Assembly: GCA_001986395.2 (NCBI GenBank)
Contig: MQVO02000002.1
Location: 248,001 to 312,000, forward strand
Direction: 5' to 3'
Length of the DNA: 64,000 nucleotides
From: Irpex lacteus
Lineage: Eukaryota; Basidiomycota; Agaricomycetes; Polyporales; Irpicaceae
Part shown: positions 8,219 through 47,091 of the stretch, in pieces
How the letters are laid out: each line of letters begins with the position of its first letter
Numbering within the stretch: position 1 is the first letter of the stretch
Notes under the pieces: generated by a model
The model's input: only the letters and a program-made list of their open reading frames with translations
Told to the model about the DNA's origin: nothing
The model's database searches: none
Translations under genes and position numbers: made by a program

Positions 8219-8224
8219 TATATA
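8219..8224 (-). promoter_or_regulatory. TATA box of family copy C
   Basis: TATATA about 89-94 nt upstream of the copy C start codon, in line with the other copies. Confidence 0.45.
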
Positions 8225-8372: not shown

Positions 8373-8424
8373 GGCAGAACAGGAAGTACAGGAATCTTTA
8401 TCCCAATGTATGTCCTGCTCTGCC
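8373..8424 (-). promoter_or_regulatory. Inverted-repeat upstream element, copy C
   Basis: Arms GGCAGAACAGGAAGTA (8373-8388) and TATGTCCTGCTCTGCC (8409-8424) are complementary at 13 of 16 positions, with a 20-nt spacer. The element lies about 243-294 nt upstream of the copy C ATG. A flanking GACTCAGAG is also shared with the elements of copies A and B. Confidence 0.6.
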
Positions 8425-8616
8425 ACGAGGGAAGCTTAAGTAATGCAGATCAATTCAAGATAGTCGCACAAGGTAGAACTTGTCCGGCCTAAACGCGATG
8501 GAGGTACTACGTAGCCCGGGGATTCAAAATAAAGGTACAACGCGAATTGCACGCGATCGAGTCGAACATAGGTCGCATAAGACATCTCAGTCATCTGCCG
8601 AAGTAGCGGTGATCAA

Positions 8617-9284: not shown

Positions 9285-10154
9285 GATAACTGGGGGAGTG
9301 TGCAGGAAGGTCGAGGTTTGGTTGTGAGTTCGCGGGTTGAGCAACCGCAGCGCCATTCGGCTATCGAAATATATATGTTTCGAATCTTACGTACACCCTA
9401 CCATTCGTAAGCTCACGCGTTGCGTAGCTTCGGCCACAGCCGTGGAAAGGGAGACAAATATGCCCAGATGTCCACGTACCTCTTGCTAAGCCACAAGGAA
9501 GGTGGATACAGTGTAAACATGGCTTTGCGTAAGTAAGACTCTGCATCGAAGAAAATAACGTGATGAGTAAAGAAAACTATACACAAATTGCTCAATTAAC
9601 TGACCTTATCATTCTCCTTGAAACCGTACAGGTCTTTTAGAATTAGCATTGCCCATTACTTGACGGCCTTGCAGGATATCCCAGAGCAACGCAACATTTG
9701 ACTGAGTCTGCATCGGGCCCTGAGCCAGCCCTGACAATGACTCGACTGCCCAGTCCCTTGGGATGAGACACGGGAGAAGCACCGAATGCTTTCAGTACGT
9801 GAGACACAAGTGCACGCCGCCGTGAACTGAAGTTCGAGTGTAATGGAGGACAGGCTGGACGGGTAAAGCCAGCCATGGCCATGGTGGTTGTGAACAAAGT
9901 TGTGGTTATGCAACACCACCACAACGGCCGTCCGAGAGACACCATCTCAGGTAGCCGCTCGCGTTCGGCCGGCGAGCCCGTGTTCCGAATACCTTGTAGT
10001 ATGTACTACTACCAACTTGAATGTGTTTTTTCCCATAAGACCCTCAATCTCTGCATTAAATCACCAAATATAGTTTCGACATACAATAAGCTTGAAGAAG
10101 TTGATCTACAACGGAAACACAAAGATACAGGCTAATGGTGACAATCAAGTCCGC
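9285..10154. other. Intergenic between family copies D and E
   Basis: Holds the copy D promoter and the 3' flank of copy E. No further coding frame is supported. Minus-strand frames around 9650-9940 are Cys/His-rich but have neither a start in context nor plausible splice sites. Confidence 0.35.
9369..9376 (-). promoter_or_regulatory. TATA box of family copy D
   Basis: ATATATAT about 85-92 nt upstream of the copy D start codon. Confidence 0.4.
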
Positions 10155-10813
10155 TCAAAGATCGAGAGTAACACAACTTAAACCCCGTTGACTTCGACTT
10201 GGCCGCTTCCTAGCGACTCCCGTTCTAGGACGCATGATCTGACGAAGGAGAAACTTGAGTAGACCTCCTGCCTGAGCATTTTTTCGAGGAAATATCTTTC
10301 GGGTCTTCTTCGTGTATTTCGCTAACGCGACCTCAGTAGGGTACGTAGCAACATGCGCCCCGGTACCCTGCGCGTCCACGAGGTCGACAAGATTGACGTG
10401 AATTGTTTTAAACAGCTAATGCTCGTTCAATATCTGAAGTAAAGCCAGTCGGACGGGAGTCAAGGGTGATTCACCTTCTTACACTCTGCCACACTTCCTG
10501 GAATGGGATCTACGTCTATTGCGTGACACAGCTTCTGCCACCCTTGTATATCGGTCTCTTCTTTGCCGTACGTGTCGTTGAATTGGAGCACCAGAGCAGT
10601 TTGCAAAGCCTTGCGTTCATCCTTGCGTTCATCTTCATCCCAGTGTTTTTGCTTCGCTAGGCGATGGAAGTGAGCTATCGTCTCCTTCGATTCATCGTAA
10701 TTGAACTCGGGAAAACGATCGAAATATTTCCGCAAGTGGATCTACTCTGCTGGTCAGGATCCAAGGTACGGGTCTCATAAGAAGTTTGATTGCGATCTCA
10801 CCTGAGATGCCAT
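10155..10813 (-). CDS. Tandem family copy E (conserved fungal protein, unknown function)
   Basis: Exons 10802-10813 (MASQ), 10475-10741 (267 nt) and 10155-10415 give 179 residues. Motifs are IHLRKYFDRFPEF, YDESKETIAHF, YGKEETDIQGWQKLCHAI, LFKTIHVNLVDLVDAQGTG and GGLLKFLLRQIM. In place of the NPG motif it reads RPRTG, and the basic tail (RKRPSRSQRG) differs from the others. It is the most distal copy of the array and shares exon 1 (MASQ) most closely with copy B (MARQ). A TATATTTA box lies about 65-72 nt upstream of the ATG. Upstream DNA lacks the inverted-repeat element of copies A-C, so regulation may differ. Confidence 0.85.
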
Positions 10814-12761
10814 CCTGCAGGGCAGCAACGAGGACCGGAGGCTAGGATGGTAGACGATTACGGTCGGCAGTATGAGGTAAATATAGGCTGAGGTCTCCAA
10901 GGAAGAGTGGGGGTAGCGCCTTCACTTGGACAACGCGAATAGGTCTTCGGCTAAGCTTCTCTCAAAGAGTATCACCTTGTTGCACAGGTTGACATACACA
11001 TGATCAGAGGTGCTAGAACGAATTCACTTCAACATGCGTTGTGGCGGCACTGGCGGGAAGACCCAACTTGAAAGGCAAAGAATGAAGGTAGTACAGTACC
11101 TGTGGATTCCATTTACGTCCCGTTGGACCAGGCTAGATGCGTCTTCGCTGTGTAATTCCGCCGAGCAAAATTTCCATGGCCAAGAAGCCATCTACGAGAA
11201 GCAATGAGAATACGCCAAGTGCACGAAAGACTGGTCACTGACCGATACTGACCCTTTAGCTTGCTGCGCCTCGAGCAGATCCTGCAAAAAACCGTAACAT
11301 CTATGCCCAGTGCGTTTATACGGTTCATTCACTGAGATAAGTCGAAACGATACATATAGATTACGCAGTGCCAAAACACAACAAGCTTGACGGCAGTGAC
11401 GACTACTATGACACCTCGACGCGCTACTCGGCGGGTGGCGCAGTCAGCAGAAGAATATTCCTTGATATACAAGTCGGTTTTAGGAGCTAGAAATAGAAAC
11501 CTCAAGAGCGAAAGTGGGACCTGAGGCCTGAGGGTTAGGATGAACTGAGTTTGGACCTGCGAATGATGGTGTCACGTATGGCGCCAATAACGCCACAAAG
11601 ACTGTTACTTACCATTCCCGGAGAGACTAGAACTGGCTCAGTAGACTCTCTTCGACGTGCTGAACTTCATAGACTTGACTTCGAGTAGCGAGGGAAGATC
11701 ATCATCCATTTGCGATCAGAGATGCACTCCCTGCTGTTCAACATTGCTACTCGGTGGCGTTGAGGCCTTCCCACTGAACTTAGAGATTACCCCAGAGAAC
11801 ATAGAGGAGAGCCACCCGACGTCAGGTTCACTCCCATTCTGAGACCTGCCATCGATCTGATAGTCAGCCTGTGTAGCAAACAACATTCGATAACCTGGTA
11901 CATACTGATCTGCTTTGGCTGTGCTGACCTCTGAATCGGTCAAGGGCGTAATCTGCTCCCTAACATTATCATCGAGCGCTGTCTGTTCTGCTGATCGAAG
12001 GGTCCACCCAGATTACGACAGGGTTCGATCTCGCAACTCTGTGGTCTAGCAATAGGGCTTCGGTCTACCGAATCCTGAACCAGTGCCAAGTTTGCCATAG
12101 GTATGCGGGCCTCTGTCTTGCCAGAGCTGTCGGGACTAAACAGTGCTACCGCACAATAAAATTGATGTTGGGCTCCTTCACGGTTTGCACAATCATCGAG
12201 GGAGTCAACGACTGCGTTCCGCGTCGACGTCAGGTCTTCTCGGAAAACATAATTCTCCATACGGCTGAGTTCCTGCAGGGCCACCGCATGGAAAAGGTTC
12301 GACTGGGTCCTATTAGGTGTGTACAATCAGCGTGGACTGAGGAGTCCATTGAGGTCGACAACGTTGGGCCCGCTTGAGGGGACATGACGAGGAGAAAGAA
12401 CGTCGTCGAGGAGCTCCAATTTGCGACCGACGCCTTTACATCGATGTGGGAGACGCCACGTGTAACGACTGAGAAAACTGAGATAAAGTTTATCTGTAGA
12501 TTTCGAGCCACAATGCCCAAGTGAGCCAGACAGTGTCAGAAGTCCACATAATGAGTAGTATAAAGACGAAACAAGGGAGAGTGTACGGGGCATATATCAT
12601 GGAGCATACATCATGAGGGGCATAGACACCGACAAGATAAGTTGCTTGGAGAACTGACAAACTCATGAGCATAGTGAGTAGAAATTGGCATGGTGAGTCG
12701 GATTGCACGGAGCCTGCTCCCAAAAAATAAATAGTTTAGTTTACCTGGCTGCATCTGCATC
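10814..12761. other. Gap of 2 kb with unresolved minus-strand frames
   Basis: Three abutting minus-strand frames (12327-12593, 11940-12326, 11716-11943) have moderate protein character. The last of them ends with a possibly amphipathic segment (WLSSMFSGVISKFSGKAS). I could not join them with convincing splice sites or recognise any domain. This may be a species-specific gene, a decayed gene or plain intergenic sequence. Transcript data would decide. Confidence 0.25.
10878..10885 (-). promoter_or_regulatory. TATA box of family copy E
   Basis: TATATTTA on the minus strand, about 65-72 nt upstream of the copy E start codon. Confidence 0.4.
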
Positions 12762-14334
12762 TCATGCACGCAACTGCAGGGCAACAAGAACAACGCTAGT
12801 GGAATAACGATCGTGTAAGCCGGGATTTACGCGGCCAAAGTGTGCACGTACATAAACAGCAGAGTCTCCGCAGGCGCAAGACTTTCCGGAGGTTGAACGA
12901 AGACTCGCCCTCCATTCGTGGCGACATTGGTAGTGCTGTACGTCGTATAGGAGGCGATCGATATGTTCTTCCAAGGCATCGAGCCGTCGAGTATCGATTG
13001 TGGAGTAAGAGACGTTACTCTTAGGAGAAATGGGTGGAGGTGGTTCTTCTTTGTGCTTTGCTCGACGTTCTTGAGCCTCGATGCCACGTAAAACAACGGT
13101 TTCTCGAGCGTGTATGTGACCTTGTAGCTGAGCCGGAGCACTGCTTCTTACACTTCGTTTCAAGGGTGGGTCAGGAGGTCGCTCAGGAGGGGGAGGATGA
13201 ATCCAAGTCTGGCGAAACCTCTCCGGGCGAGGGACAGGTGGTAGAACCGGAACTGAAGGCGGTCGTGCCATATCATCTCCGTCCACATCACTAGCAATCA
13301 GACGACCCTCTTCCCAAAGCGGACACTTGCATGTCTTCCACTTCACCCCACATCGGTAACAGAACTGTGTCTTACACACGCACGTAATGTGGAAGCAGCC
13401 GCTCTTGAGCTCGACCAGCCTGTCGCATCCAGGGCACTGCTGCGCGCAGCCTCGCTGCACCAAACGCCGAGGGACGTCGTCCGGTCTACACGCGTGCAGG
13501 ACGTGCTTCTTCACTTCGCATCGACATCTACTGCACGTGCGGGTCGCGCATCCTGATTCTGTGCAAGTGTACGCGTGAGGTGGGCCACCCCTGGATTTCG
13601 TCCGAGGACCAAGGAAGCGGTTACAGGTCACCTTTGAACAGTAGACGCGTTTGGGCGTGCTGAACTCCTGGGTCTTGAGAGAGAACAGGCATAATAACTG
13701 CGGGTCCATGTGCTTCTCGAATAGAGAAGTTGGTACTGTATCTTGACAGCATCGTGGGGGAAAGATGGATTCATCCTGCGTAGAGGCCCTGATCAGACTA
13801 AGAAGACATGGTATATCGTAGAAGTGTCCGCAGGGTACTCGGACCGCATTCGCATCCATAGCCATATGTTGACACGCAACACATTCATGTTTCTTGAAAC
13901 CATGACTGTAAGGAAGCATTATCAGCGACAATAACTTTAATGAGCCCATGTGATGAACAGAACATACAGAGATCGTCGAAGGAACAGCCGTGCGGCCGTA
14001 CTTGCGGCCGCTACATGCGATTTCCGCTCAGCGTTCTGAGCAGAAGCAGTCGGCGGTTCTACAAAGATCAGTCCGGACCTGACAGAACAAAGTAAGACGC
14101 CGAAGTAAACGTGTGAACGGCACCGTACCTGGGCCCCGTCGGACGCGCCACGCTACTCAGGATATCTCTAGGCCTACTGGGTGTCCTGACCGCTTGAAGC
14201 TTAACAGGACCTCCTAGGACAACAGAGGGTGGCTTGGAGTTCAAATCAGCCCAGAGGTGAATATCTGTGTCGGCCAGCTTGAGCGCAATCTTGGCATTCT
14301 GGACAAAGGAGTCTCGAGGACCGTCGTAAATCAT
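12762..14334 (-). CDS. RBR-type (RING-IBR-RING2) E3 ubiquitin ligase
   Basis: Minus-strand exons 14129-14334, 13968-14078 and 12762-13905 join in frame to 486 residues. The N-terminal third has no recognisable domain. RING1 begins at HECVACQHM with CGHFYDIPC and a terminal PPRCC (about residues 110-165). The IBR region follows (YCSKVTC, YTCTESGCATRTCSRCRC). RING2 reads CPGCDRLVELKSGCFHITC, then CKTQFCYRCGVKWKTCKC, and includes the SGCFH cysteine that corresponds to the catalytic thioester cysteine of HHARI/Parkin-type ligases. Such enzymes carry ubiquitin on RING2 before passing it to a substrate. A Pro/Arg-rich linker, a short helical segment (LDALEEHIDRLLYDV) and a Cys/His-bearing tail end the protein. 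The start at 14334 is the first ATG after an in-frame stop; a further upstream exon is possible. The two splice joins restore an open frame from the IYDGPRDSF region into RING1. Confidence 0.85.
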
Positions 14335-16737
14335 GTTGCAATCTTGTCAAGGAGAGTACTTGGTCCGTGTGAGTTCCTAGTGATCAAACAAAACATAGAA
14401 GCTGGATAGATCGACTCAGCAGTTGAAAAGGAAGGGCCAGCCTTAAGAGAAGAGATTGAAGATATGTCGAGGAGAAAGATCCGCGAAGAAGGGGCGATTG
14501 CGATAGCCCGACAACGTCCCACATACAGACCCTTATCATCTACAAAACACGTTGTAGGGGTGAGCTGGAGTCTTTATGCTTCCACCGCTCAAATGACCTT
14601 GACCTGATGGAGTCTATAGATCGGTACTTGCACGCACATATTAGGCCAGCAGTTGGTACTTCATGAAAGTCTACAGGCAATCAGGTGGTCGGTCAGATCG
14701 GTCTCTCGCTAACCACGTGTGGCGAACATACCGTAAGCTACTTCACGAGTGCGTTTGTTAGAAACTCAAGCTCCATATATTGTGCGACCTTGAATCACGA
14801 AAACGCAATGCAGTCGGCGAACAACCGAGCCGTGACACTGAGCGAGGCGTACTTACCCTACTTCGGCTAATGCCTTTGCTTCGAGAAGTGGATGTCGCGC
14901 CTTGCGCGGATAATGTCCATGAAATTGCCAAAGATACTTAATGCAGATCTATGCCGTTGCATGCAATACGTTCCACAGCTCAATTTGTTTGGCAAAGAAT
15001 CAAGGTTCGTGTAGTTGGCGAGATTGCAAATCCTCGCATTACAATCTGACGGGTATCGACGAGCGGCCTATGGCAGAGAAAAGTGAACACTACCTGCATG
15101 ATAAGCACGAATAGTAAGGCACTCTGACCGGGAGTATACTCACCTATCTAGGCGACGAGAACAAAGCACCCCTACCAATGAATCATCATCCCGCCCTTAG
15201 TGATACTTCCAGTTTTATTCATGATACGAAACAAAGGGGACCCTAAAGAGGTAAGAATCAGTGTTCTTTCTGTGTGAATAGACAGCAATGGCACCAGCAT
15301 ACCTCATTTAATATTTAGGGAACGATACTGCGCCAAACCACAAGGTTAGTTCGTTAGAGTTCGCGTGAGGCTGTAGATATCTAGATCCAGCTATTTGCTA
15401 AACCATCTGCAAATGTGGTTTTATGGATCTGGTCAACTTCTTCGAGATGATTTGTGCATTAAACTTGAAGCTTGAGGTTCAAAGGTACCCGTGTAGTGAC
15501 AACGTAAAAGTGACCATTGCAGGCCCCAGCTGGTAGTACGGTCTTCGCGGGCATTGCCGGCCTGCCAATGCCGGCCTCCGGTGATGGTGGCCACTCATCG
15601 GCGCCGGCCGCGGACGTAGCTTTGTTCACTACACTCAACTGTCTTTCTATCATGACACGCTCAAGCTACATATAGCCAATATTTTCAAGTTTGAAAAAAT
15701 GGTAATAGGAAGTTGTGAGACAGCTTACAACGACCGGAAGCGAGAACTAGTGAGTACGCCCTGTGCCTTACTGAGTCTACACGACAGTAACTGCAGGTTC
15801 TTATCTGACATTTCTATAGACAGAAAGCGTAACTGCTACATGAGTCGCTGCAGCAGCTACAGGTAGAGAACTATAAACTATAACGGCGAACTTCAGAGCC
15901 GAAAGAAAGCTTCAAGTTCAGAACGGCTAGCACGCAGCCCGCGGACGCAAGTGTCACGCGTATTATCTACACCAGCATTGCCAACTAGCTCAGCTTGGCA
16001 TCTGCGCAACCTATGACATATGCTGTGTAGATCGTAGCAGATGATCAACTAGGTATGCTTGCAAATACGATCTTTCATGGTCCTGCTCAAGCATTTTGAT
16101 GGCTCCACTGTAGCCTAACAACCACCCAACTTGCAGCGTTAACGTTTACAGTCGGCGGTGGTACCCTTCATCTAAATAATTTGAGCAAACGTTGTTCAGG
16201 TCTTCTGCGAGCGCGAAGCGACGACGACCTCTGACGAAGACAGATCAGGATGGTTTTAGTCGCTTCTCCGCGATCTACGGGAGTCTTTGCAATGCAGGTG
16301 AATAAATCAACTGAGCCAATGATACCCCCTAGACACTGATCTGCAGGTTTTCGATACAGGAACGCTTCTTCAGCCACCAAAGGGCGGCCAACGTTCCTGT
16401 ATGCCCGCGCGATTGGCCACGAGGATATCTTCGGCCTTGACGATCACACATCAACGTCAATAATGTCATATGGCCATTTCCCTCTTCGTGCACTATAAGT
16501 CCGATCTTCTTCATGCCAAACTTAACACAACATCGCTGTGCTGCTCTCGGCTGTGAAATAGATATAAGAACGGACGATGCGCCTGGGGAGAAGCTCAAGC
16601 CGCGCTGAGCGTTGCCCCCTCCTAGTCGTTTCCCTTTGTTTTTGTTTTGACGCAGGCGTGAAGTTGCTACTGTAAGATCTTCCATTTTGTTTAATATCCC
16701 TATCGGCTTTCTGGTGTAGCTTGGGCTACCACTTGAA
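14335..16737. other. Gap of 2.4 kb, no gene supported
   Basis: No frame in this stretch combines a start, splice sites and protein-like composition. A GC-rich patch at about 15540-15620 contains a short imperfect inverted repeat around GCATTGCCGGCCTGCCAATGC. A minus-strand frame at 16329-16685 (118 codons) looks accidental. The right end serves as the promoter of the 7TM gene. Confidence 0.35.
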
Positions 16738-18511
16738 ATGGGTGCAAATGTTATTCAGGGAACTGCAACGGATTTTCCGGAAGAGCAGATGTAAGTCATA
16801 AACATCGTTCTCGCTCGCCCTGATATAGAGCTGACCCGCGGTACTTAGTTATGTCCACAGTTTCCTACATCTAGTTGGCATTAGTAAGTATCTATTGTGA
16901 CTCTCATGTACAAAACGCCTTGAGTCTGAACTGTCCCCATAGCGATACTCTTTTACGACCACCTTCTCACCTTCGGCCAAGAACTCTCACGAATATGGAC
17001 GTCTCCTGGCTCAGGTGCTTCTGTGCACTTTTTACTCACTCGTTATTTTGCATTCTTTTCCGTAAGTCCTCTCTACACTCCTTGCCAACCATGTCTTCAT
17101 TTCTGACAAAACAATACAATAGATTATAACGATCACATTCGGGAACTTTGCAAACTCATTCCAAACAGTTGAGGTATGAACTCTCTCTAATCACCACCCA
17201 ACATAGAACAAATCAGCTCACCATTCTAAAGAGGTACAGTATGGTTCAACATTGCCACACACAGTCAGCGTCTGCTGAACTTTGGCTCCTAGCTGTGTGA
17301 ACTATGCATTCTATCGACAGATAGTTCTCATGGCCACGCAGATATTGGTCGCAAGTGAGTCTAAGTCCCCTCCTTGTCGACTGACCGAACGCATGATTGT
17401 TGATTGCTCCTCAAGATATGCAATTCCTCAGGACATACGCTTTGTATTCGAAGAGTAAACGTATCGCCGCTCTTGTGTTTGGTGTGGGCTTTGTACTGCT
17501 CTCTCTTTCTATAGTGAGTGGTACTTTCGCTTTAGACCATTGACTTTAGTACCCTAGAGACTGATCTTCTGCGTAGTGGGCTGTTACTGGACAAGCTGCC
17601 GAAGTCTCGCTTCAACAAGGCTGCCATATCGCCCCTTCAAAGACGTCGTGAGTAGACACTCTGCATACACAATGATTACATCTAATGCACGACAATAGCT
17701 CCATCCGTAGGTTTACCACGTTGAAGTGCAAAATGAAAATGCACATACTAATCTGATCGTGTTGTATCACAATAGATATTGCAGTAGCTTGGGAGGCGCT
17801 ATTTGCGTTCGATGCCATGATCTTCATCTTGACGATCCTCAAGACGTATAAGGAACGTGTTGGCAACAAGCTAGTAGGGCGTTTGAACCTCATATCACTC
17901 ATGTTTCGAGATGGTCAGTCGCTCCTGACAGTTTGCTATTGTCAGCCATTACTGATGTATCTCTTGGATGTGTAGGTGCAATTTACTTTGGGTAAGTTCT
18001 TTCGATGCTTCGCACTCAACAAAGATCTCAAGAACAAACAGCGTGATGATGCTTGCACAGGGTGCCAACGTCATCACTTTCTACGTGAGACATTCCTTGT
18101 ACGTATTATGGATTGTACTCATGGTTCCACCGTCACAGGTTGCTGCGGTACGTATACGTGGCCTCTCAAAGAATGTAGTTTGATATTTATGACCAATACA
18201 GCCAGCGCTGCGAGGCGCGTTGTCGACGGCTGCAAGCACGTACGTGACTCTCCCATTTTCTATCGCGGTTGGTGTTGAACATCAGTATTAACTCCTCGAC
18301 ACCGAGCAGTATCTCTGTAACAATGATGTCCAGATTGACTCTCAACCTGCACAATTCAGCGGAACATACAGACCATATCAACGCAACAACAGTGCCATTC
18401 TCAACTCATATCATATCAACTCTGCAGTTCACGACGCGGCATAGGCTCGACGAAATAGATGAACAGGGAGAAGAATATGATCCCGGCGAAATCGGACGCA
18501 GCCAGGCTTGA
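16738..18511 (+). CDS. DUF6533-type seven-transmembrane (GPCR-like) protein, 15 exons including microexons
   Basis: Exons: 16738-16790, 16861-16883, 16943-17061, 17123-17173, 17232-17233, 17293-17354, 17416-17513, 17577-17647, 17699-17706, 17776-17913, 17976-17991, 18042-18084, 18139-18147, 18202-18239, 18286-18511; total 957 nt, 318 residues, in frame throughout. The N-terminal part (TILFYDHLLTFGQELSRIW, then LLTRYFAFFS) is the DUF6533 signature of basidiomycete receptor-like membrane proteins. Seven hydrophobic segments can be placed. ESCVNYAFYRQ before TM3 and QQGCHIA in the second outer loop supply the cysteine pair expected in GPCR-like folds. The tail after SVTMMSRLTLNLH is short and acidic. 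Exons of 2, 8, 9 and 16 nt are required to keep this protein. The 2-nt exon is supported by normal flanking introns of 58 and 59 nt. A single longer intron joining 17173 directly to 17331 is the main alternative, but it would lose the conserved Cys. Ligand and partner are unknown. Confidence 0.82.
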
Positions 18512-19565
18512 GTGCACGCATGTTGGTGGGGATGTCGGTCGCGTTCAACAATTGTATCATTAGATTGACAAATTATCAGCACAGGTTTCTGAGAAGAGGG
18601 AACGTACTCCTAACCTAGTTGCAATGCACACGCAGATCCCGATGATTGCAAGTTGCTGTTCAGTCAGCCTACCTATAGTGGGTTATGGGGATCTGCAATC
18701 GAGGATCAGACAAACGTGGTAAGGGATGGACATCATGCTCGATAACAGTGGGAGTGGATTTACAAGTCTACAAGCGATGACTGTCTCAACCAACTCTCAG
18801 CCATCCTTAAAGCTTGAAGCTTCAGAAATCAGAATGTACTGTATATTTTGCTTAATATTGTCAAAGGATGTATAAACATGTGTTTGCGTATGACGCATCA
18901 CATTCAAGTTGATGCGGGTATCTAGAGCTCTGCTGTTCACCACCACTACATTACCAATACGCCCCAGTCGAGCCCTTACGACACGTCTCGAATGGGAAGC
19001 CCACGAGCACTGAGACATATGTGCCCACCGTACTTCTATCTTCCTCGCACCTCGTTTCGGGGAAACTGATGAGCAAATACTGCCCAATTCATAGTAGGAC
19101 CATGCACGACCGGATGACTCTCGGTGACGGAGAACCACCACAGTCTCAGCTGAGAAGTTCTTATGAACGTCAGCCGTGTTGCTTCAATAGCGATAAAGGC
19201 AATCTTCGGTGGTTGTGGCCCAGATATGACCTGCACGAGCTGGCTACCACGAGTACCGCTGCGGCCGGTGTCATTACGAGAGCGCTCACTGCTCAGACAA
19301 TCACCACGACGACCGTGTATATTTCAGTCGCTCAAGTATGGTCTTATCTCCTACTTACCCCCTCCCCCAAGCCGCTGGAGCAGTGGTGAAGATAGGTTTG
19401 GGGTGCAGCCGAGAGGAATATCTTCCGACCAGCACAGCCATACGAGACATCCTCATCCGAGTCGTTTAAACAATCATCTTCAGTAAAAGCTAGAACTTGA
19501 ATAGGTGAGCAGATAAGCCGCACTGAGGAGTAAGTTGACTAACTGCGTTTGTTTCGTGTCAAGAC
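18512..19565. other. Intergenic, no gene supported
   Basis: Frames on both strands around 18800-19480 overlap each other and look accidental. The stretch probably holds the 3' end of the 7TM gene and the promoter of the F-box gene. Confidence 0.35.
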
Positions 19566-20987
19566 ATGCCACGACACATCGAAGACCTCCCTACAGAGCT
19601 CATCTGCTCTATTCTCGAGGAACTTACTCCTGTTCCTGAGCCATACAATCAGGCCGACGGACTTGATTGGTTCGGTCTTCAATCACACTGCAGTCCTGAA
19701 CCGGACGACATCGACCTCAGACGGGACCTCGCGACATGCTCGCTCGTCTGTAGAACATGGCGCGAGATCACACTTCCTCTTCTATTCCGAACACTACCTC
19801 TTCAGGTGTCGCCGGAAGGTAGAGGCAAGGGCTTGAGCGAGGCCCTCTCCTGGCTGAAGACTGTGCCATGGATCTGCGACTGCGTCAAGAACGTCCAGTT
19901 CACAGTGCCGTTGGCCGAGGCGTTCGCGTCGGACCTGCCAGACGATGGATCGCAGTATTACAGCCTGTCACTACTCGGAGAGGTCCTCGACATGTTTCCC
20001 AAGCTACAGGAGGTAGCGATGCAGGACATCCTCCTAAGACCAGACGTATGCGAGTCGTTGCAGCTTCCGAAACGCGCCCTCAATCTCAACAGGTTCTCGT
20101 TCATCTTCCGTCATCGCTCACCTTTCGACATGTGTCTGACGGATGTTCTCTGCCTTTTCCCATGGCTCGGCAACGTCAAACGAGTCTCTCTGCAACGAAT
20201 ATTCGGCCTGCAGCTGCGCCCGTCGTTCCCACTCCCCAAACTTCAAGCGGGTCTTCACATCGAGTCACTCGACATCTCCTCGGTGACCGGTATCCACGGA
20301 CTCACCCGGGTATTGGCTCAAACGACCTCCTTCCGCGCCCACGGCCTCAGAAGCCTCAGTCTAAACCTCAACGCCATTCCAGGTCGCTTTGACGAAGGCG
20401 ACGTCGAGGAATTCCTCGCTCTCGTCGCTCCCCAATTAGAGGAGTTCAACTGCAACGTCGGTTGGTTCATCGCCCGTGAGTCGTCCATGTCCTCCCTCGT
20501 ACGACCATGGCACCTTCATCTTAACTCCACCCTCCACCCCCTCTCCTGGGCAGCCCGTCGACACGCTCGTCTTGACTTGTCTGGATTCACGTCACTCAAG
20601 AAGTTACGGGTGATGTTCTACACCATCGGCGACTTCAAAGACGAAGAGAACCGTGCTGATATGCTCGCTGTCGCCAATATCCTCGCGTCACTTACCGCAA
20701 ATCAGACATTGACGGGAGTGTATTCGTCGGTGGAAGAGGTGACGATGACCTTAGTGCTTGACGACTGGTTGTATGAACCCGAGAGACGTGTGCCTGGGAA
20801 GTACCTCGCCGGCACCTGCTCGGCTGAGTTGGCCCAGATCCAGCATGCGATGACCCAACTGAAGATGCTGAGGTCGTTTAGGATTATGAGACATGGTCAG
20901 AAGATACGTACATTCGACGAAGACGATCGAACGGCGTTCGCTTCGGCTTTGCCGGTGCTCAAGAAACGAGGGGTGTTACGCTTTTAA
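19566..20987 (+). CDS. F-box protein, single exon
   Basis: An uninterrupted frame of 473 codons starts MPRHIEDLPTELICSILEELTP. The N-terminal IEDLPTELICSILEEL, together with CSLVCRTWREITLPLLFRTL at about residues 55-75, is an F-box, which binds Skp1 in SCF ubiquitin ligases. The remaining 400 residues contain leucine-rich-like strands (LHIESLDISSV, LRSLSLNLNAIP, LRVMFYTIGDF), typical of the substrate-binding half of mushroom F-box proteins. F-box families are greatly expanded in agaricomycetes, and targets are generally unknown. The lack of introns is unusual next to its neighbours. The gene converges with the Ser-rich gene on the other strand, with about 380 nt between the stop codons. Confidence 0.85.
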   Translation: MPRHIEDLPTELICSILEELTPVPEPYNQADGLDWFGLQSHCSPEPDDIDLRRDLATCSLVCRTWREITLPLLFRTLPLQVSPEGRGKGLSEALSWLKTVPWICDCVKNVQFTVPLAEAFASDLPDDGSQYYSLSLLGEVLDMFPKLQEVAMQDILLRPDVCESLQLPKRALNLNRFSFIFRHRSPFDMCLTDVLCLFPWLGNVKRVSLQRIFGLQLRPSFPLPKLQAGLHIESLDISSVTGIHGLTRVLAQTTSFRAHGLRSLSLNLNAIPGRFDEGDVEEFLALVAPQLEEFNCNVGWFIARESSMSSLVRPWHLHLNSTLHPLSWAARRHARLDLSGFTSLKKLRVMFYTIGDFKDEENRADMLAVANILASLTANQTLTGVYSSVEEVTMTLVLDDWLYEPERRVPGKYLAGTCSAELAQIQHAMTQLKMLRSFRIMRHGQKIRTFDEDDRTAFASALPVLKKRGVLRF

Positions 20988-34154: not shown

Positions 34155-37100
34155 TCAATAAAAGTAGGATAAGTTAAACACTGAGCTTGAAGTCCAAGCC
34201 GAAAGCACAGCTCGGTAATGTCTTCAATATTCTTGTATAACGGTACCATCGGGGTTCAAGTTTAATACTGGATTACAAGCATCGTCAAAAACGAAGAACA
34301 CGTCCAGGCAAGAATGGACACTTACGGGCAGCCATTTCTTCTACGCTAAGCCCTGAGCGAAAGAGAGAGAAACCATCAGTAACTTAATCACTACACATGC
34401 GCAGACAACGAATACTCACTTCCAAGCTTTGTCGCTCCCCCTTCTCCAAGGCTACCATCCGCTAATGCCTGCTTTTTGTCCTGCAACTGGAGGATACGGT
34501 CTTCAATTGTGTTGGCGATCACGAGCCGTCTTACGAGAACAGGACGAGTTTGTCCCAGCCTATGCACACGATCATATGCTTGCTGTTCCACAGCATTACT
34601 CCATGCTTCATTTCGGTCAGTGACGGTTTCGAATTCATAGGAATACGATAGAACTCACCCAAATCTAAACTGATCACGTCTATGGGACAGCCACGTAGGA
34701 TTATCAGCTGGTTCATTGTTCGGACCGAGTTCACTTACGATTCGCCCTGGTAAGGTTCAACCCCACTCCGCCGCACTTCTGGCTCATCAACATGATTGTG
34801 GCCTTGTCCTTGCTCTTGAAGGCGCTGACGGCCAGCGAGCGTTTGCCAATGCTCATGTTGCCCTGGTATCTAGGATACTTGGTCAAAGTCTGACACCCAT
34901 CGAAATTCATAAACCAGACGCTTACTTGACGTGCAAGAAACCGTTCTCAGTAAGATAGTTCGATACGAGGTCGAGGCACTGAGTCCACTGTGAGATTACA
35001 AGAATCTACGCCGATACCAATGGACGATTTTAGATACCGCTTGCGCGTTAGAAGACTTCATGACACACCTTCTCCTCGGGGTGCTCTTCAGCAATCTTAC
35101 GCAACAGCTCCATCATGTGCTGAAGTGGTCTTAGCTATCGTATAATAGCGAGACGGCCGCAAAAACAAACCTTCATCTTCGTAGACGGCAAGAACGATGG
35201 CAGCGCTTTGATTTGGTCCGGCGTGAAGACGGTTTCGAAGTCCGGTTTGGCACCATGGATGATGTCTCCATCGTATTCGTCGTCCGAGTCTACGACAATC
35301 TTGCGCACCGCACGTTTACCTTTGACTTTCTCACTTGCCCGGGAACGACGTTTCGCTTCCCGACGAGCATCCTTCTCCGATTCAGAATCATCGTCTTCCA
35401 CGATGAAGTCGCTCAAGTTGTCGTCGTCATCCTCAATCTCTTCATCTTCCGAGTCTTCCATGGATTCGACATCAATCGAGCTTCCATGTCGGCCTCTCGT
35501 GATCCTACGAGAACGACGCTGGGATCTTGCTATATTCAGCATGTCCACGTCCTCATCCCGAAGTTCCATCTCAGTGCGCTCAAAGATAGCCCATGAGAAA
35601 AGAGCACCCTTGTGGATATCTGCTCGACACGAGGGGCAGTGAGGGAATTTCTGCTCATCACCCTCGACAGGCTGGAATGCGTCAATGACGCGGGCTATCA
35701 AAAGCCGCTTCAGTACATGGTGTAGACTACAACGCGAAAATGATGACGCACCAATACAGTTTCTGCAGAAAAGATGTTCGCATGCTGTGACTACAGGATC
35801 CTCAAAGACATCGAGACATATTGGGCAGCCCTCATCGTCGTTTTCTTCATTGAGCTCAGCATCAGCAGCGCCGGGCTAGGTGATCATCTACGTCAGCGCG
35901 TGGTCAACTTCAAAAGATTGATTGTCACACCTCCAGTCTGGCTGCTATTTCAGCTCGAGAAGCTGCCATGGCTTGGTACCGTATCTGCATCTTTCGCACA
36001 AAAGCTGGCCCGACGGCTTTTTCAGCTCTCAGAAGCTCAGAGTTCCTGTCGCTGTCCTCCGCTTCTTCTCCTGGGCGCATGAAAGCATAACCCTCCTCAG
36101 TGATCAAGGATGCGTGTGAGCAAATCTGACGCAAACGCAGGAGCATAACGAGAACTACAAAAAAAAAGAATCAAATCAGCTGGCATTCGTGACTAGAAAC
36201 GTAACAAAGCTTGCCAGTGAAATAATTCCTATGATGAGCGAACAATTAACAATCAACTCGAAGTACTTGCACGAGATATCAGGTTACTCACTTGAGCACT
36301 GTCCCCTGTCTCAGGAACCTATTGAATATGGCCTGGGATTGTGACTCCACCATCTTATATGTGTCTCGCTCTTCCTGAGAGAATTCCAGCCTGCACAACT
36401 CAACTGTCTTCGACGGAAGTTTGATGAGTGGTTCACCGTTGAGTTTCTATCGTATAACGGGATGAGTGAGGGCCATGACTGCGATGCATTTCTATGAAAC
36501 TCACGGAATCCTTCTTGCGACGCAGGAGGACGCCTTTGAAGATGGCCTGTATTTGACGCATCGCCGGACCAGCTGACAGCATCGAAAGAATCAGCATGGA
36601 AGACGCACTGGATCCTTAGAACATGTACGTACGATCGCGCTTATGACGAGGCCCTAGCACATTACGCCTGAAAATCTCCCAATCATAGTATGGTCGGAGC
36701 TTCAAGAAGCGGAAGTAAGGATAGACATCCTCGAGGGCGTTGTAGATAGGAGTTCTATACACCCCGGACATCAATCACACATGACAGCGCAGAAAATCGT
36801 AGTCACATACCCTGTTAGGCACCAGCGATGTTGGGCTTCGAGATCTGCTACGGCCATCGACATAACTGACGGATTGGTCAGTATGAGACAGTCTCGAACA
36901 AGATAGAAGAACCTACGAGATTCCTTATTTCGAATATTCTGTGCCTCGTCCAACACCACACGGAACCTGCGTACATTGTCAGTCGATACTACTGTGCGTT
37001 TGTCTCGTCAGAGCATACCACTACTAACGCGTTAGATAATGATAACAACAATTGGGCATAGAACACTGACTTTCATCTTGTACAGCAGGCCTCGTGCTCG

Positions 37101-39680
37101 CTTCTTTCGCAGAGCCTCCCGTTCGTCTTGAGCCATATCCGCCATATCGTCGACAAGGAAAGGTTCCCCAAATCCACCCCTAGATGACCGTTTCTTCTTG
37201 CGGCTTTGTGCAGCGTAATTCGGCCAGTCTAACATCAGAGTCTATTATGCAGACAAGTTAGTAAACTATCGATGTGGTTTGCAACTGATCGCATACATGA
37301 TAAGTGGTGAGGACAATGTCATACTTCTGCAGTACCTCAAGCTTCTTCGGTTTGTTGGTACCTGTGCGAACGTTAATATAAAATGATGATACCGAGAACG
37401 ATCCATAACTGACCATGGTAGGTAACGATCCTCAGGCCCATATTCGTCTTCTGCTCGATCTCCTCGTACCACTGCTCAAGCAAGCTCAAAGGAGCGACAA
37501 TGAGCGTCGACCTCGCCTCAACTTGGTCAGCAGGACCCGGGGGCCTGTTCTTGGCCATCAGCGCGATCATCTGGACGGTCTACATTCGCAGAAGGGAAGG
37601 ACCATCAGATCTTCGACATAATATGCAGAATATAAAGCACCAGTCCCACGCACCTTTCCGAGTCCCATCTCGTCCGCCAATATTCCTCCCCTCCGAGTCA
37701 CCTGCCGCTCCTTCTCGAGCATCCAAGCCACCCCGATCGCCTGGTGCGCCATCAGCGCGACGTTCATGCCCGGCAACGGCTCGTACATGTTAGGCAAGCC
37801 GAGCTTCTCCAAAGCTTCGCTGACGCTAGAGGTCTGGTCGAATGTCTCGGCATTTCCAGCTTCGATGACGAACTGGTTGATACTACAGGAAGTAAAACAT
37901 TTTGCATTAGCGCTATTTGAACCATCAGAGGAGTCCTAGTGTACGGTACTTACTCGTGCTGATTCGCACCAGCCCCAAGAGGCGGCCTGTACATCGGAGT
38001 TTGCAGAGCCGCGGGCAAGTCGTCGCCCCATACGCCTTCGTCATTGTCAGGCTCAGGTTTCGCAGGCCATCCAGGTCCACCTCCGGGCGTCGGAGGAGGG
38101 ATGTTATGCTTTGCGTGCGCGCCAACATGGTAGGCCTCACCGTCGAGCGTCATAGCCAGTGATTGCCGTTGGGCCACTGGGCGCGGCTTAGGTCTCGATG
38201 CGACAGGCCGCTGAAGTTGCGGAAGCCCGTACGCGACGTCGTTGAAGGTGGGAGGCTCCTGTTTCACAGGAGCAAGGTTGGGGAGTTGTACGTTCGACCC
38301 AGACGCAACGGGGTGTTGCGCAGCGTTTATTGTCGGCCGTGCGCGTGTAGCTTCGACTTCGAACATGCCATTAATCCTGTTCCTTTCAGCGGTAAGTTCG
38401 TCCCTGGTCTTCGTAAGATTATTCATCCTCGTCATATCAGCCTTCGTCTTCCCCTCCTTGTCCTCGGCTCTGTTCAGAGACTGCTGCACCTGTCGCAACC
38501 CCCGCTCAACATCGTTAAGCTGGTCTCGCGCCTCCTCAGCATCGAACCTGGATGCCGGTCTGACACCAGGCGAAAATGGCTTTGGCGCAGGGAGGAACGG
38601 AGGAGTTGTCCTCGGTGGCGTGGCACGCTCTGTCTTGGCGACTTTACGCGGTTGTGGTAGATATTCATCAGGTGTCGGGGCCTGGTCTTCTTCCGACTGC
38701 AGGCTGTTGAGAGAGATGGAAGATTTGCGCTTCATTAAGGGGGCCTGAAGGAGACCCGGTGGGTCGAGAGGCTCCAACTTTACGGGAAGCGACAGCCTAC
38801 CGCGAGCCCCCGAAGGACGAGATGGACCTGGGACGGAGCCAGTAGGGTGGGGAGATCCTGCGCTCACGACCCGTGCAGGTGTGGTGGGCTGCGACGACGA
38901 TGGTTTGGCCTTGTACGGAGAGCCAGCCAGGCTTTGCGCGATGCGCTGCCGCTTCTCGGGGGACATGGACAAAGTCTGAACAGCAAGGTTCAGCATCCAT
39001 ATAACGAGAGCAGCAACCCAGAACTCGTGCACCTTTTGCTCCGCTTTGACTGGGCTGGCATGCGGGGTGCTCGTGCTTTGCATGGCGATGCGGGCGTTGC
39101 GCGACTCGATGTGCATTGCTTGCTGTATGTGGACCTGTAACGTGAATAATGGACTGTTAGATGGAAAAGGGAAATTTGGAAGATAGGAAAAGGGAAATAG
39201 GATACTCGCCCTGTATGGAGATAAAGACCCTAGTCCGATGGACTTTCCGCCATCCCTTGCGCCCAGACGTTTCAATAGCTTGATTTTCTCTTTTCTGCAG
39301 CCACTCTCAAGACATGTCACTACACCGACTAGTAGAAGAGATGAGTTTACGAGAAGGATTGATAGCATATAACCATACTTACATCCGGTCTTCGGCTCGA
39401 GCTTAATGGAAAACTGAATAGAGACGTGAAATGAGCGTGATGTTTCCGTCGAAGTCCTGCAGGGCTTACGTTCGTGTCCCTCGGGTACTGCTCTACATGA
39501 TTCTCAAGCTGCTTGATATATTCCTTCAGCGTGGCCTCATCCTACAAAAATACATGAAAGACTGATTAAATTGACGCCACTTGGCTGATAACAATGAATA
39601 CTTGCCTTGACAGTCCTGGGGTAGTCCAAGTGCCTCTTTGCGAGCTCAACGATGTCTTCTGCGGGCTCGATGATAGCCAT
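34155..39680 (-). CDS. SNF2-family DNA translocase with RING finger (Rad5/Uls1-like), copy 1
   Basis: I can trace 27 exons summing to 3912 nt (1303 residues), all in frame. In order: a conserved N-terminal block ([21 protein letters not shown]); a putative C2H2 finger (TCLESGC...[11 protein letters not shown]); a long disordered region; the SNF2 ATPase with [13 protein letters not shown] (motif I), [13 protein letters not shown] (Ia) and [11 protein letters not shown] (II). Next come a C3HC4 RING (CPICLDVF...CEHLFCRNC...CPSC), an acidic stretch with a SUMO-interaction-like FIVEDDD, and the helicase C domain ([50 protein letters not shown]). A RING set between the two ATPase lobes is the Rad5/Uls1/HLTF layout: ubiquitin ligase plus translocase in DNA-damage tolerance or SUMO-targeted turnover. 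Exon 37019-37020 is only 2 nt and exon 36215-36228 is 14 nt; three introns appear to use GC donors. The last exon (34155-34180) is uncertain; reading through its donor instead would end the protein near 34280. Confidence 0.9.
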
Positions 39681-41921: not shown

Positions 41922-44900
41922 ATGGCGACCAACGGGTGGCTCGTTGAGCTTGCAAAGAGACATCTGGATTATCCTACGACCGTTAAGGTGCGTATCCCCT
42001 AGAACGATCCCGGCGGCAACTGACTATCTGCCCAGGATGAGGCCACACTGAAGGCGTACATCAACGAGCTGGAGAACCACACAAATCACAACCCAAATGA
42101 TATCAACGTGGGTCATACGTCCCTTGGGGTATATACGCAGCGGAAGACTAATCTCACACCCTCGTCTATACGTAGTTCTCAATCAGGCCTGAACCGAAGA
42201 CTGGATGCGAGTACAATCTATGCGTGTCCAGACCGTCCCTTGAACTGACACTCTTTTCAGTTGGTGTTGTAACATGCAGGGAGAGCGCGTGCAACCAAGC
42301 GAAGATCAAGCTCATAGCACGAAAGACTCTCACAGATGGAGGCAAGTCCATTGGTCTTGGGTCTTTGGGCCCCTATAGGGTAAGCACGCCAGCGCTCTTC
42401 TTCACGTACTTACTCTAATGGTCATACCGATTATACTACTACAGGTGCACGCTGCGCGGGAAGCTCATGTCGAGTCGCGTGAGTTCCGTATGGCCCTGAA
42501 CCCACTAGCAGGGCCACGCACACCGGGTAACAGTCCAGCGAAGTCGAAGCCAGGTAGAAAGGTGGATCAGTTTCAGTCACTTCTTCCATCTCATGGTCGC
42601 TGAAATCTACTTACACAGTCTTCGGAGAAGCGGCAGCGCATCGAGAAGATCCTCGCGACCTCTCCATTCAAGTCCGGGCCCAGACCGCCTTTGTCCCAAC
42701 CAAGCACACCCGCGCGCACTACAAACACAGCTGCCCTTCGCCCTCCCAACTCTGCTCCAGGACCATCTCGTGTACGTCGATCTGTGACTCCAGTAGCAGG
42801 TCCCTCTCGCTCGTCTCCGAGGATGTCGTTGACTCCTACGCCTGAGCACATCCCCATGGACCCGCAGACCCCGCCGCCACCGCCTAGGAAGCGAAAGTCA
42901 TCTATCTCCTTGAATGCGACCCAGTCGGAAGAGATACGGGATCCGACACCCGAAGACTTCCTACCACAACCGACTAAGCTCGCCAAGGTGAATGGCCCTT
43001 CGGGCCCTGTACGCACGACGCCCTCTAGGGATGTCTCTCAATCTCCGTCTCAGCTTGAGCCGAGTGTGGACCCACAGCCTGTTGCATCGGAATCGAACGT
43101 TCAGCTGCCTGCTTTCAGCGCGATGCAGGAGGATTCAGATTTCGATGGTATTGCGGACGGTGTACCGCAGCTTCAACGCGAGCGGTCATCTGAACCTGTT
43201 GAATCGGTACTGCGATCGAATGTGTCGATTCCTGCCCGAGCCTTCAGCGCGATGCAGGAGGGCTCAGACTCTGACGGTATCACTGGCGGTGTACTGCAAC
43301 TTCAGCACCAGCACCAGTATCAATCCGAACCCATAGAACCTGGACCGAACATGCCGCTTACTGTCTACAGCGCAATGCAGGAGGATTCGGACGACGACAG
43401 CATGGACGACAGCGTACCCCAGCCTCAACCCGTTGCATCTGGATCGAACGTTCAGCTGGAGGACCAGCCTGTGCGTCGCACGTTAGCTGAAGCTATCGAC
43501 GGCGAGATGTACCACATGGGAATGTTCACTGGCCACAATATCCCACCTTCCACGCCCGGTAGAGGTGCGCCGTCTGGATCACCTGAGAATGGCGGGGACT
43601 TGGACATGTTGGACGATGATACAGAGATGGCTACTCAGGATCCTGTGCAGCCCTTCTTTGTTGGTGCGGATGGGTTGGGGTAAGCGTGGTTTTGACTTTG
43701 ATCCTTACCACGGGCGAAACTTGTATTGACTCTCATGCACCTAGGTACCGTCGATACGTTACCGAGGCTGGTAACGCCGAGTTATTGGGGGAAAGTACCG
43801 ATGTCAATGACGCTCTTAGTGCACTTGGGCTTCGAAGTCTGAATGAACGTCTTCCTGGGATGAAGACAGTGCTAATGCCACATCAAGTCATTGGAGTGGC
43901 TTGGTTGGTCAACCAAGAGCGCAACTCACCTTTCAAAGGTGGGATTTTAGCGGATGACATGGGATTAGGAAAGGTATGTGCTTTCTCTTGGAGTATAATC
44001 ATCCCATAAGTTATTAGATCATTGACTGGATTGCGTGATATATAGACTATTCAACTTCTGGGGCTTATGGCGAGGCATCAGCCGCGTGTAGGGCTGACTC
44101 CGAAAAAGTCAACTCTTATCGTTACTCCCGTGAGCGTACTCGAACAGTGGCAAGGGGAATTTGAGAAGCACACGAACATGGGGCTGAGAATCCTTAAGTA
44201 TCATGGTTGGTGTCCAATCGTTCTATACAGCATGCCTTTGACTGATTGGCTCCGTTTGATGCATAGGCCAAAGTAAGCCCAAGACACTCGAGGTATTGCA
44301 GAGCTATGACGTCGTCATCACAACCTACGATGTCGGTGATTCCTTCTATTTTTTTTGTTTGGCGATGCTGACTACGACATCCAGACCGTTTTGTATGATT
44401 GGGCGGGCTACCCGGCACTCAGACAAAAGAGGCTGGGAATCCTTGGAGACAGTGCAGTGGACCCTTCTCTCGTCACCCCACAGGGTAAGACATGGGTACC
44501 GGGTAATCTTCTTCACAATATAAAAGTGCGTACTGCCATAAACTTGTGGATATCGTATGTTCACGCTGTCATCCATAGTGGTACACATCTATCAGACTGG
44601 TGTAACCCAATACCCAATATCAACTTACATGATTCCTTGGGCACAGGTTCCGAGTAATATTGGACGAGGCCCATATTATACGTAACCGCAACTCCTGTGA
44701 GCCTTGCCTTCAATTTCTTGCCTCATCCAGACTGATTGTACGCTATTAGACAAGTCTGAGGCTGTTGCGGCCCTCCCCGGCTCTTATCGGCTGTGTCTTA
44801 CAGGGTGCGTCCGTGTAATGTTCAGGAGAACATTCAAGCTGAATCAGGATTGATTTATAGCACACCGATAGTCAACGCTCTAGAGGATACATACCCGTAT

Positions 44901-47091
44901 TTTCGTTTCCTGCGCCTTCGTCCGTGGAATGACTGGCGTGAATTCCACGATAAAATCTTGGGTATGCATAGCAAGACGTATCGTAAGTGCATACGCATAT
45001 GTTCTAGCTTTTAATCGTCTCTAATATATGAACAGCGGAAGGAGCTACAAGACGGCTGCGAAAGTATCTCAAGCCGGTGATCCTTCGACGGACCAAGGAC
45101 TCTGTACGAGGACGTAATAGAAGATCACTAGTTCCTCCACTGACGCATTATTATTGTAGAGATTGAATGGTAAACCACTAATTACGCTTCCTCCTAAGAC
45201 CATCGAACTAGTCTGGCTGGAATTTTCCACGGAGGAGCGGCACGTCTACACCATGGTCGAGAGACAGTGTCAGATCATATTTAACAGATTTCTAAGGGAA
45301 GACACAGTGCTCAAGTAAGTGTCTGCCTTGATCATAATAACAATAGTAACTAATGAACATTGCCACCCGCTGATGGTAGGAACTACATGTCAGGTATGTA
45401 CCTTCCGTTTTCCGATCAACGAATTCCAACTGATCCCAGACACTTTCAAGTCCTTGCAATGCTACATTGCCTGCGTGAAGTTTGTTCACATGCTGCTCTG
45501 ATTACACGAGATGGCTCTGCCTTCATTCGTCCGGGTGAAGAAGCGGACGAGAGCAATAGAAATGAAGAAATTATGAGGGCCGAGCAAGTGGCTGGACCTG
45601 ACTTCGTGCTACGCATGAGAGAGAGGTACAAGAAAGCTGCCCTAGCGCGAGTCGCTGCACAACAGCCGGTGAGCTGCGTCTTCTGTCCATAAATACAGTA
45701 TGCGGTCACTGACATATCTTTAGAATACAAATACCGAAAGCGTTGACGAAGAAGATGAGATATGCCCTATGTGCAAAGACAGGTATTCTGAGCCTGTGGT
45801 CGTACCTTGTGGTCATGTATTTTGCCGAGGGTGTATTAGTGCGTTGTCGAAGACTCATCATCCGCGCGGCTTTGCACTTATTCTCTGTTATAGCGGAATT
45901 TCTTGATAAACCCCACCCAGACGAGGGACAGGAATGTCCGTTCTCTATATGTCCTATACCTACCTGCCAAGAACATGTTTCGGATTCTGCACTTTTTGCC
46001 CGTAGTATCTTCGAACCGGCGGGGGCAGATCTTCCTGCCGAGGAAGCATTGCATGGCGATAGTGACTCAGAGGTGGACGAGCAATTGGTGGACGAAAGTC
46101 TGGATGGCCCTGACGAAGGCATCATCCTTGGGCCAAAGCCAGACCTTTCCCATCTCACTTTACAGCAGAGGGCCAAGCGACTGCAGTTCTTGCCGTCAAC
46201 GAAAATGCGGGTGAGCATTCCACTCATCTCTTCATCGTATTTGTTCGGTTAACAAGCGTGTAATAGCACATGATGGAGTTCTTGCTCAAGCTCCGGGACG
46301 AACGCCCGGATGAAAAGGCAGGCGTCCAGCCTATACACATTCTTCCTCACCCAACTAAACGTTCCGAACTCAGGTTATCGTCGTTTCCCAATGGACGCGA
46401 TGTTTGAACTTGGCCTCAAGGTATCTGACTGAGAAAGGCTTCTACCACGTTAAGTAAGTCGTCTAGCTCTCTAGGTGCTGTATAAGCACATATATTAACT
46501 ATACCCGCGATCACAGGTATCAAGGAGATATGACTCTTGGCAAGCGCAAACAGGCCGTTGATGAGTTCATGAACAAAGACAAGGCTACCATCATGCTTAT
46601 GAGTCTGAGATGTGGTGGGGTCGGGCTGGATCTCAAACGCGCAAATCGTAAGCTACTTGGTACCTCTCGTCGTCAGCTACGCTAACTATTGCCCTCGATC
46701 TTCTACAGATGTCGTAAATCTGGATTTGGGTCAGTTACTTGAAACAGATCCTTGTGTAGATTTTTACTTACCGATTCGTAGCGTGGAGCAACGCTGTAGA
46801 GGAGCAGGCCTATGGTCGTGTGCACCGAGTGGGGCAAGAACGCCCTGTATATGTTCAGCGGCTCGTTATCAAGAATAGCGTTGAGAACCGTATCCTTGAA
46901 ATCCAAAGACTCAAACAGAATCTTGCCGATGGTATTTTGGGAGCGGGAGGAGATATAAGTATCAGCAGTAAGTCTTAGTATGTCACAAGGGGGATATATG
47001 TAGCTAATCTAGCTGTTGCCAAGGCTGGACTGTGCAGGATTTTGCTACTGGTGAGCTAGAACGTCTCTCACATTCTCTTCACAGAAACTGA
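41922..47091 (+). CDS. SNF2-family DNA translocase with RING finger, copy 2 (paralogue of copy 1)
   Basis: A multi-exon gene of roughly 1200 residues, colinear with copy 1 exon by exon. It starts [20 protein letters not shown], has the same putative C2H2 finger (TCRESAC...VHAAREAHVES), a disordered region with a repeated SAMQE(D/G)SD motif, then GGILADDMGLGKT, TLIVTPVSVLEQW and VILDEAHIIRN. The RING begins CPMCKDRYSEPVVVPCGHVFCRGC, and the C-terminal lobe has VVSQWTRCLNLA, MLMSLRCGGVGLDLKRAN and EQAYGRVHRVGQERP. Motif residues of the ATPase look intact, so this is probably active. Differences from copy 1: DEAH instead of DEAQ, a shorter acidic region, and a RING whose last cysteine pair is spaced oddly (CPFSICPIPTC instead of CPSC). 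The 2-nt exon (44579-44580) and 14-nt exon near 45379 are both conserved. Two introns appear to use GC donors. The last exon ends in LERLSHSLHRN at 47091. Confidence 0.88.

Follow-up and report, generated by a model that had tools for sequence, protein, structure and literature searches.

Two paralogous SNF2-RING helicase genes of Irpex lacteus very probably share a constitutive exon of only two nucleotides, TG, which would be spliced stepwise by intron definition. Both genes lie in the window, a stretch of 64,000 nt (positions 248001-312000 of contig C308) from a genome of 44.3 Mb in 317 contigs. We observed TG between AG and GT at the same codon of both paralogues and in both haplotypes, where the reading frame requires it and the residue that it helps to encode is conserved; from this we infer its inclusion in the mRNA and the order in which the two flanking introns are removed. 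Judged from the DNA, the microexon is very likely in copy 1 and likely in copy 2. Copy 2 alone makes the weaker case because rival donors exist there; the case is carried by copy 1, the second haplotype and a census of homologues.

The splicing of both genes was modelled by hand, each with the homologous copy as guide (Table 1). The two copies are divergently oriented, and their modelled stretches lie 3.6 kb apart. We modelled 19 introns in copy 2 and 20 in copy 1, 19 of them at matching places, and with TG included both frames are open. A domain scan of the window-haplotype proteins, which are 43.8% identical to each other, found SNF2-rel_dom, Helicase_C and RING in both copies, with the RING inserted between the SNF2 N domain and the helicase C domain as in SNF2-RING helicases. 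RAD5/HLTF proteins proper have an N-terminal HIRAN domain. The scan listed none in copy 1 or copy 2, whose modelled N-termini are incomplete, or in two longer annotated relatives, P0001 from Trametopsis cervina and P0002 from Irpex rosettiformis; RAD5/HLTF proper was set aside as a class for this reason. The label ULS1/Rrp2-like SNF2-RING helicase fits the copies better because no HIRAN domain was listed, and some homologues among the database matches listed are named 'putative ATP-dependent helicase C23E6.02'. A second contig, C248, holds both genes in a 13-kb stretch (positions 7000-20000; L011 and L012) that is colinear with the window and 94.8% identical to it. The simplest view of it is a second haplotype that stayed apart as its own contig. 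Its readings of both genes contain no stop, so that each copy has an open frame of over 1000 aa in either allele.

Several further features were noticed in these genes. The N-terminal region of copy 2 (window positions 43110-43400) holds degenerate repeats around SAMQEDSD that differ between the haplotypes. Both copies have a 14-nt exon at the same place (45380-45393 on the forward and 36215-36228 on the reverse strand) between introns of 57-65 nt, and a third tiny exon, of 21 nt, is also common to both (46709-46729, forward; 34659-34679, reverse). A single GC-AG intron is present in each copy, not at matching positions (36155-36214, reverse; 46318-46373, forward), the counterpart in the other copy being GT-AG.

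Table 1. Modelled features of the two SNF2-RING genes around the predicted 2-nt exon, in window positions
Feature	Copy	Positions	Strand	Remarks
SNF2-RING gene	2	42691..46967	+	spliced model, 20 exons; start and last exons not fixed; open 1056-aa reading
Upstream exon	2	44385..44525	+	141 nt, ends ATA AAA
Intron A	2	44526..44578	+	53 nt, GTGCGT...CCATAG; YTNAY branch-site candidate TTCAC, CTCAC in C248
Predicted exon TG	2	44579..44580	+	2 nt, first two bases of Trp codon; kept in C248
Intron B	2	44581..44646	+	66 nt, 59 nt in C248; weak donor GTACAC; branch-site candidate CTTAC
Downstream exon	2	44647..44696	+	50 nt, rest of Trp codon and motif II (FRVILDEAH)
Rival donor	2	44546..44547	+	CTT/GTGGAT, gives IKVRTAINLFRVILDEAH; survives in both haplotypes
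Rival donor	2	44555..44556	+	ATC/GTATGT, strong, pair score 12.1 bits, gives IKVRTAINLWISFRVILDEAH; TGA in path in C248
Rival donor	2	44600..44601	+	CTG/GTGTAA, 47-nt intron; TGA in path in C248
Rival GC donor	2	44528..44529	+	AGT/GCGTAC, Val for Trp, pair score -0.5 bits; survives in both haplotypes
Rival 23-nt inner exon	2	44579..44601	+	second donor GTAACC, 45-nt intron, gives IKWYTSIRLVFRVILDEAH; window haplotype only
SNF2-RING gene	1	34327..39080	-	spliced model, 21 exons; true start further upstream; open 1197-aa reading
Intron A	1	37021..37070	-	50 nt, GTCAGT...TAGTAG; CTAAC branch-site candidate
Predicted exon TG	1	37019..37020	-	2 nt; kept in C248
Intron B	1	36967..37018	-	52 nt, GTATGC...ACGCAG; CTGAC branch-site candidates
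Downstream exon	1	36917..36966	-	50 nt, with FRVVLDEAQ

The starting point was a sequence-only reading of copy 2, which had placed introns of 53 and 66 nt around a TG at 44579-44580. Both the sequence and the coordinates were borne out: the gene reads ATAAAA/GTGCGT...CCATAG/TG/GTACAC...GCACAG/GTTCCG, with the product IKWFRVILDEAH. The further claim that the same exon is conserved in the paralogue also held, as TG is found at the same codon of copy 1 (37019-37020) and again in both genes on C248. With the microexon the copy 2 transcript would read ATAAAATGGTTCCG, and both genes would be expected to give ...AAATGGTTCCG... Usable splice sites stand on either side of TG, including the flanking AG and GT. 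In copy 1 a CTAAC or CTGAC starts 15-16 nt before the acceptor in each half, while the candidate branch sites of copy 2 (TTCAC/CTCAC and CTTAC) are weaker. The second donor of copy 2, GTACAC, is weak as well and lies at the low end of the range of the other introns (0.2 to 1.8 bits versus 0.1 to 9.5 bits for 35 other introns). An AG three bases before the first acceptor of copy 1 was considered as an alternative site and rejected, because it would read AAA TAG, a stop. On C248, TG between AG and GT is kept in both genes together with the outer GT and AG, while intron B of copy 2 is 7 nt shorter and the second donor of copy 1 is GTACGC for GTATGC. An assembly error was rejected because two paralogues and two contigs agree. 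The exon is kept in both paralogues and both haplotypes and, judging indirectly from protein models, perhaps in other species.

We then analyzed the residue made with TG in 238 homologues (P0001-P0238), composed of the best 120 of 7379 matches in the copy 1 search and 118 new ones from the best 120 of 7819 in the copy 2 search. The census was made by pattern match, and its rows include many near relatives and are hence not independent. The R-x3-DE motif pattern was found in 236 of the 238 proteins; at the TG-made residue, 122 of these have W, 111 have F, two have Y and one has R. The pattern is missing from P0180, in which a W can be read by eye, and from P0002, in which the segment is absent. 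Hence 236 of 237 readable homologues are aromatic at this site; a solved RAD5 chain (6l8n) has Phe there. The sole non-aromatic residue among the 237 is the Arg of the T. cervina protein P0001. In the I. rosettiformis protein P0002 the model runs ...LLYKIN-DAHTSEAVAAL... and motif II is missing, while the other domains are present. These two proteins, both from Irpicaceae, are the best two matches of copy 1 among the matches listed; on the strength of this gene family alone, the window would come from a polypore near Irpicaceae. The Arg of the one and the loss of motif II in the other form the pattern to be expected if annotation fails at a microexon there. The simplest reading, which is a guess from these odd protein models, is that Trametopsis and Irpex carry the same tiny exon and that gene prediction failed on it.

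Regarding the relationships more closely, the closest database protein to copy 1 among the matches listed is 59% identical. P0001 and P0002 are not among the best 120 of 7819 matches in the copy 2 protein search, where the nearest listed protein has 48% identity; aligned directly with copy 2 they score 342 and 344 bits, the best of six proteins tried, compared with at most 306 bits for four of the top matches of that search. Nothing closer came from a fragment search for transcripts, which listed 88 proteins out of 503 candidates, with a top identity of 50% across 80% of the query, and a scan of viral contigs for the pattern gave three matches and no relative. In the trees P0001, P0002 and copies 1 and 2 form a clade with support 100/100. 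The grouping of copy 1 with Irpex is supported with 96/73 in one tree and 62/21 in a smaller tree, and a grouping of copy 1 with copy 2 is not rejected (p-AU 0.071), which bears on whether the genes duplicated before or after the split from Irpex. Copy 2 has a long branch (1.55-1.6).

To evaluate other ways of splicing the interval, we enumerated single-intron readings (in frame, stop-free, introns of 40-160 nt, acceptors at most 40 nt downstream) and two-intron readings (outer sites fixed, inner exon of 1-60 nt, introns of at least 40 nt). Copy 1 has 23 single-intron readings per haplotype. FRVVLDEAQ is retained in 12 of them, with changed residues ahead of it, and an aromatic residue precedes the motif in none of the 23; with the outer sites fixed, TG is its sole two-intron reading. 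For copy 2 the claim that no alternative phase-correct donor exists nearby did not survive: 14 single-intron readings were found in the window haplotype and 6 in the C248 allele, of which 4 and 2, respectively, keep FRVILDEAH, and the window haplotype allows a second two-intron reading. Over the four sequences, TG is the only two-intron reading in three and the better-scoring of two in the fourth, and among the readings found it alone gives the conserved residue without an insert in all four. Frame and conserved motif thus require TG in copy 1, where no simpler reading was found, and do so less strictly in copy 2.

The alternative that survives best would have copy 2 use one of these other readings, namely donor 44546, 44555 or 44600, the GC donor 44528 or the 23-nt inner exon, and leave the 2-nt exon real only in copy 1. 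Such a transcript would carry VRTAINL, VRTAINLWIS or a longer insert, would include the 23-nt inner exon, or would read AAAGTGTTCCG. With acceptor 44646 all of these are in frame and stop-free in the window haplotype. Donor 44555 is strong, donor 44600 retains the Trp right before FRVILDEAH after an insert of ~24 residues, and the 23-nt exon scores near TG (16.6 versus 17.6 bits), the microexon's own donor being weak; GC-AG introns occur in both genes (at 36214 in copy 1 and 46318 in copy 2), so that the GC reading is not absurd. However, in the C248 allele the paths from 44555 and 44600 hit TGA and the 23-nt exon has no valid reading. Only donors 44546 and 44528 remain there, with introns of 94 and 112 nt and with the aromatic residue lost in both. 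These two donors would put seven residues or Val in place of a residue that is aromatic in all but one of the 237 readable homologues, and they need introns of 94-119 nt compared to 51-74 nt for the 35 others. The GC donor also has a poor context, whereas the donor of intron A (8.1 bits) lies at the same codon boundary as that of copy 1. We regard another reading of copy 2 as decidedly unlikely.

The lengths of the introns and the behaviour of the frame also fit the 2-nt exon. The halves of 50, 52, 53 and 66 nt (59 nt in C248) fall inside or one base below the 51-74 nt range of the 35 other modelled introns of both genes, while the unsplit intervals of 104, 121 and 114 nt are longer than all 35. 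If TG is skipped, a stop follows after 39 nt in copy 1 and 36 nt in copy 2, and retention of intron A or B leads to an early stop (24-63 nt range) in both copies. Between the haplotypes we counted 30 silent and 7 replacement changes downstream of TG in copy 1 (dN/dS 0.063) and 23 and 19 in copy 2 (dN/dS 0.233); the allelic dN/dS of copy 2 is 0.284 overall and 0.318 upstream of TG. With allelic dN/dS values under 1 in this downstream part, selection seems to act on the frame past the joint, which these point values suggest more clearly for copy 1 than for copy 2. The same data bear on the very improbable case that copy 2, or both copies, are splicing-defective and leave TG out, giving a broken frame and a pseudogene or a truncated protein only. 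Copy 2 evolves fast, with its long branch and its overall allelic dN/dS of 0.284, and skipping of TG gives an immediate stop, but both alleles are open over more than 1000 aa, the three domains are present in the window-haplotype proteins, and the downstream point values lie below 1, by a clear margin for copy 1 and a smaller one for copy 2. It is barely credible that the interval is a stwintron of nested introns removed whole: its double length with internal GT and AG resembles fungal stwintrons (PMC12403724), but whole-interval removal shifts the frame to a stop after 36-39 nt in both copies, and the first GT is not preceded by the G that a [D1,2] stwintron requires.

For a comparison with chance we shuffled each of the four intervals 5000 times, preserving dinucleotides. 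AGTGGT with both halves of at least 45 nt was found in 0.30%, 0.20%, 0.80% and 0.46% of the shuffles. Laxer controls gave higher values, with AGTGGT anywhere in 1.9-4.8% and any non-stop AG-NN-GT with halves of at least 45 nt in 2.9-6.1%. The claim that chance is unlikely holds for the strict pattern (0.2-0.8%) and is weakened under the laxer ones (1.9-6.1%). The introns had also been said to differ widely between the copies. This was confirmed for intron A, whose similarity between copy 1 and copy 2 is no better than that of shuffles (score reached by 162 of 500), and was less clear for intron B, whose similarity is borderline (26 of 500).

With the 2-nt exon as the preferred reading, TG would supply the first two bases of the Trp codon before helicase motif II (DEAH/DEAQ), and each flanking intron (50-66 nt) would be short enough to be recognized across itself, that is by intron definition. 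If U1 base-pairs at the second donor, it would occupy the first acceptor as well. Therefore, both introns can hardly be defined at once and are probably removed sequentially. If intron A leaves first, the joint would read AAATG/GTACAC or AAATG/GTATGC, a better-scoring donor. This order turns the GTG before donor B into ATG and raises its score by 1.6 bits, from 6.5 to 8.1 in copy 1 and from 0.2 to 1.8 in copy 2, which is a mild hint at removal of A, then B. The suggestion of stepwise, recursive splicing made at the outset thus stands in part: stepwise removal is the natural mechanism, whereas strictly recursive splicing does not apply, since 2 nt separate the second donor from the joint. A zero-nucleotide ratchet point was rejected likewise, as no AG and GT are juxtaposed and TG stands between them in both copies and both haplotypes. 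More speculative, and unlikely as a whole, is the idea that the exon predates the split of the sampled Irpicaceae lineages and that its splicing has since then had to proceed in two steps, A before B. If either step failed, a premature stop would result, so that the splicing of this codon would act as a shared mRNA-level brake on a DNA-repair/remodelling helicase family; loss of the 2-nt exon would have been barred, even as the introns around it were replaced.

If true, the finding adds to the few known exons of near-zero length. Exons as short as one or two bases put to the test whether any minimum length is needed, and they speak for intron definition and ordered removal. One exon common to two paralogues lies here inside divergent introns, and the bases that matter should therefore be findable by comparison. 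Annotation can miss such exons, a practical error that is searchable across fungi; the public models look damaged at this site in the two closest relatives among the matches listed, and the case therefore shows this practical annotation error.

The closest known system is CYP621A of Fusarium. Its 1-nt exon, backed by SRA reads, was described in February 2026 and presented as the first known from a fungal gene (Nelson and Syed 2026, PMC12940212). Both cases are fungal, have an ultra-short exon flanked by AG and GT in a double-length interval (139 nt in CYP621A compared to a 56-nt median) and restore the frame in a conserved motif, and the automated gene models of CYP621A were wrong at the site. 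The CYP621A exon is, however, 1 nt long, from an ascomycete, found in orthologues of one P450 and backed by SRA reads, whereas the exon described here is of 2 nt, from a basidiomycete, kept in two old paralogues with divergent introns and known from DNA. According to the same paper, which cites earlier work, Arabidopsis, Drosophila and humans have exons of 2-5 bp. Arabidopsis APC11 contains a transcript-confirmed 1-nt exon (Guo and Liu 2015, PMC4674806) that is likewise constitutive, required for the frame and flanked by AG and GT; unlike here, it is from a plant, lies 333 nt into a 422-nt interval and was proven with mutated reporters. The 1-nt exons of APC11 and VPS55 are conserved in plants and were overlooked by annotation (Yu et al. 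2022, PMC8831610). The plant microexons of up to 15 nt in that study are, as here, conserved, tiny and missed by annotation, but they are backed by RNA-seq and RT-PCR, and '2-nt' is absent from the main text. Drosophila recursive splicing at ratchet points (PMC8605326) also removes one long interval stepwise. It requires an acceptor immediately followed by a donor that is reconstituted upon joining, takes place in long introns and always skips the recursive exon. Stwintrons of ascomycetes (PMC12403724, PMC9024468) share with our case two consecutive excisions from one interval in fungi; they leave nothing behind, whereas here two bases stay. Among other fungi, 6-bp exons were reported in Phanerochaete P450 genes (PMC1184071) and a regulated microexon in Trichoderma Xlr2 (PMC11121469), and the introduction of the latter paper states that, among fungi, experimental tests of microexons had until then been confined to Schizosaccharomyces pombe. 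While a 1-nt exon has thus been published for a fungus, no fungal 2-nt exon was found among the titles and abstract openings listed from the PMC literature on microexons. What is distinctive here is the size of 2 nt in a basidiomycete together with the survival of the exon in two old paralogues with divergent introns.
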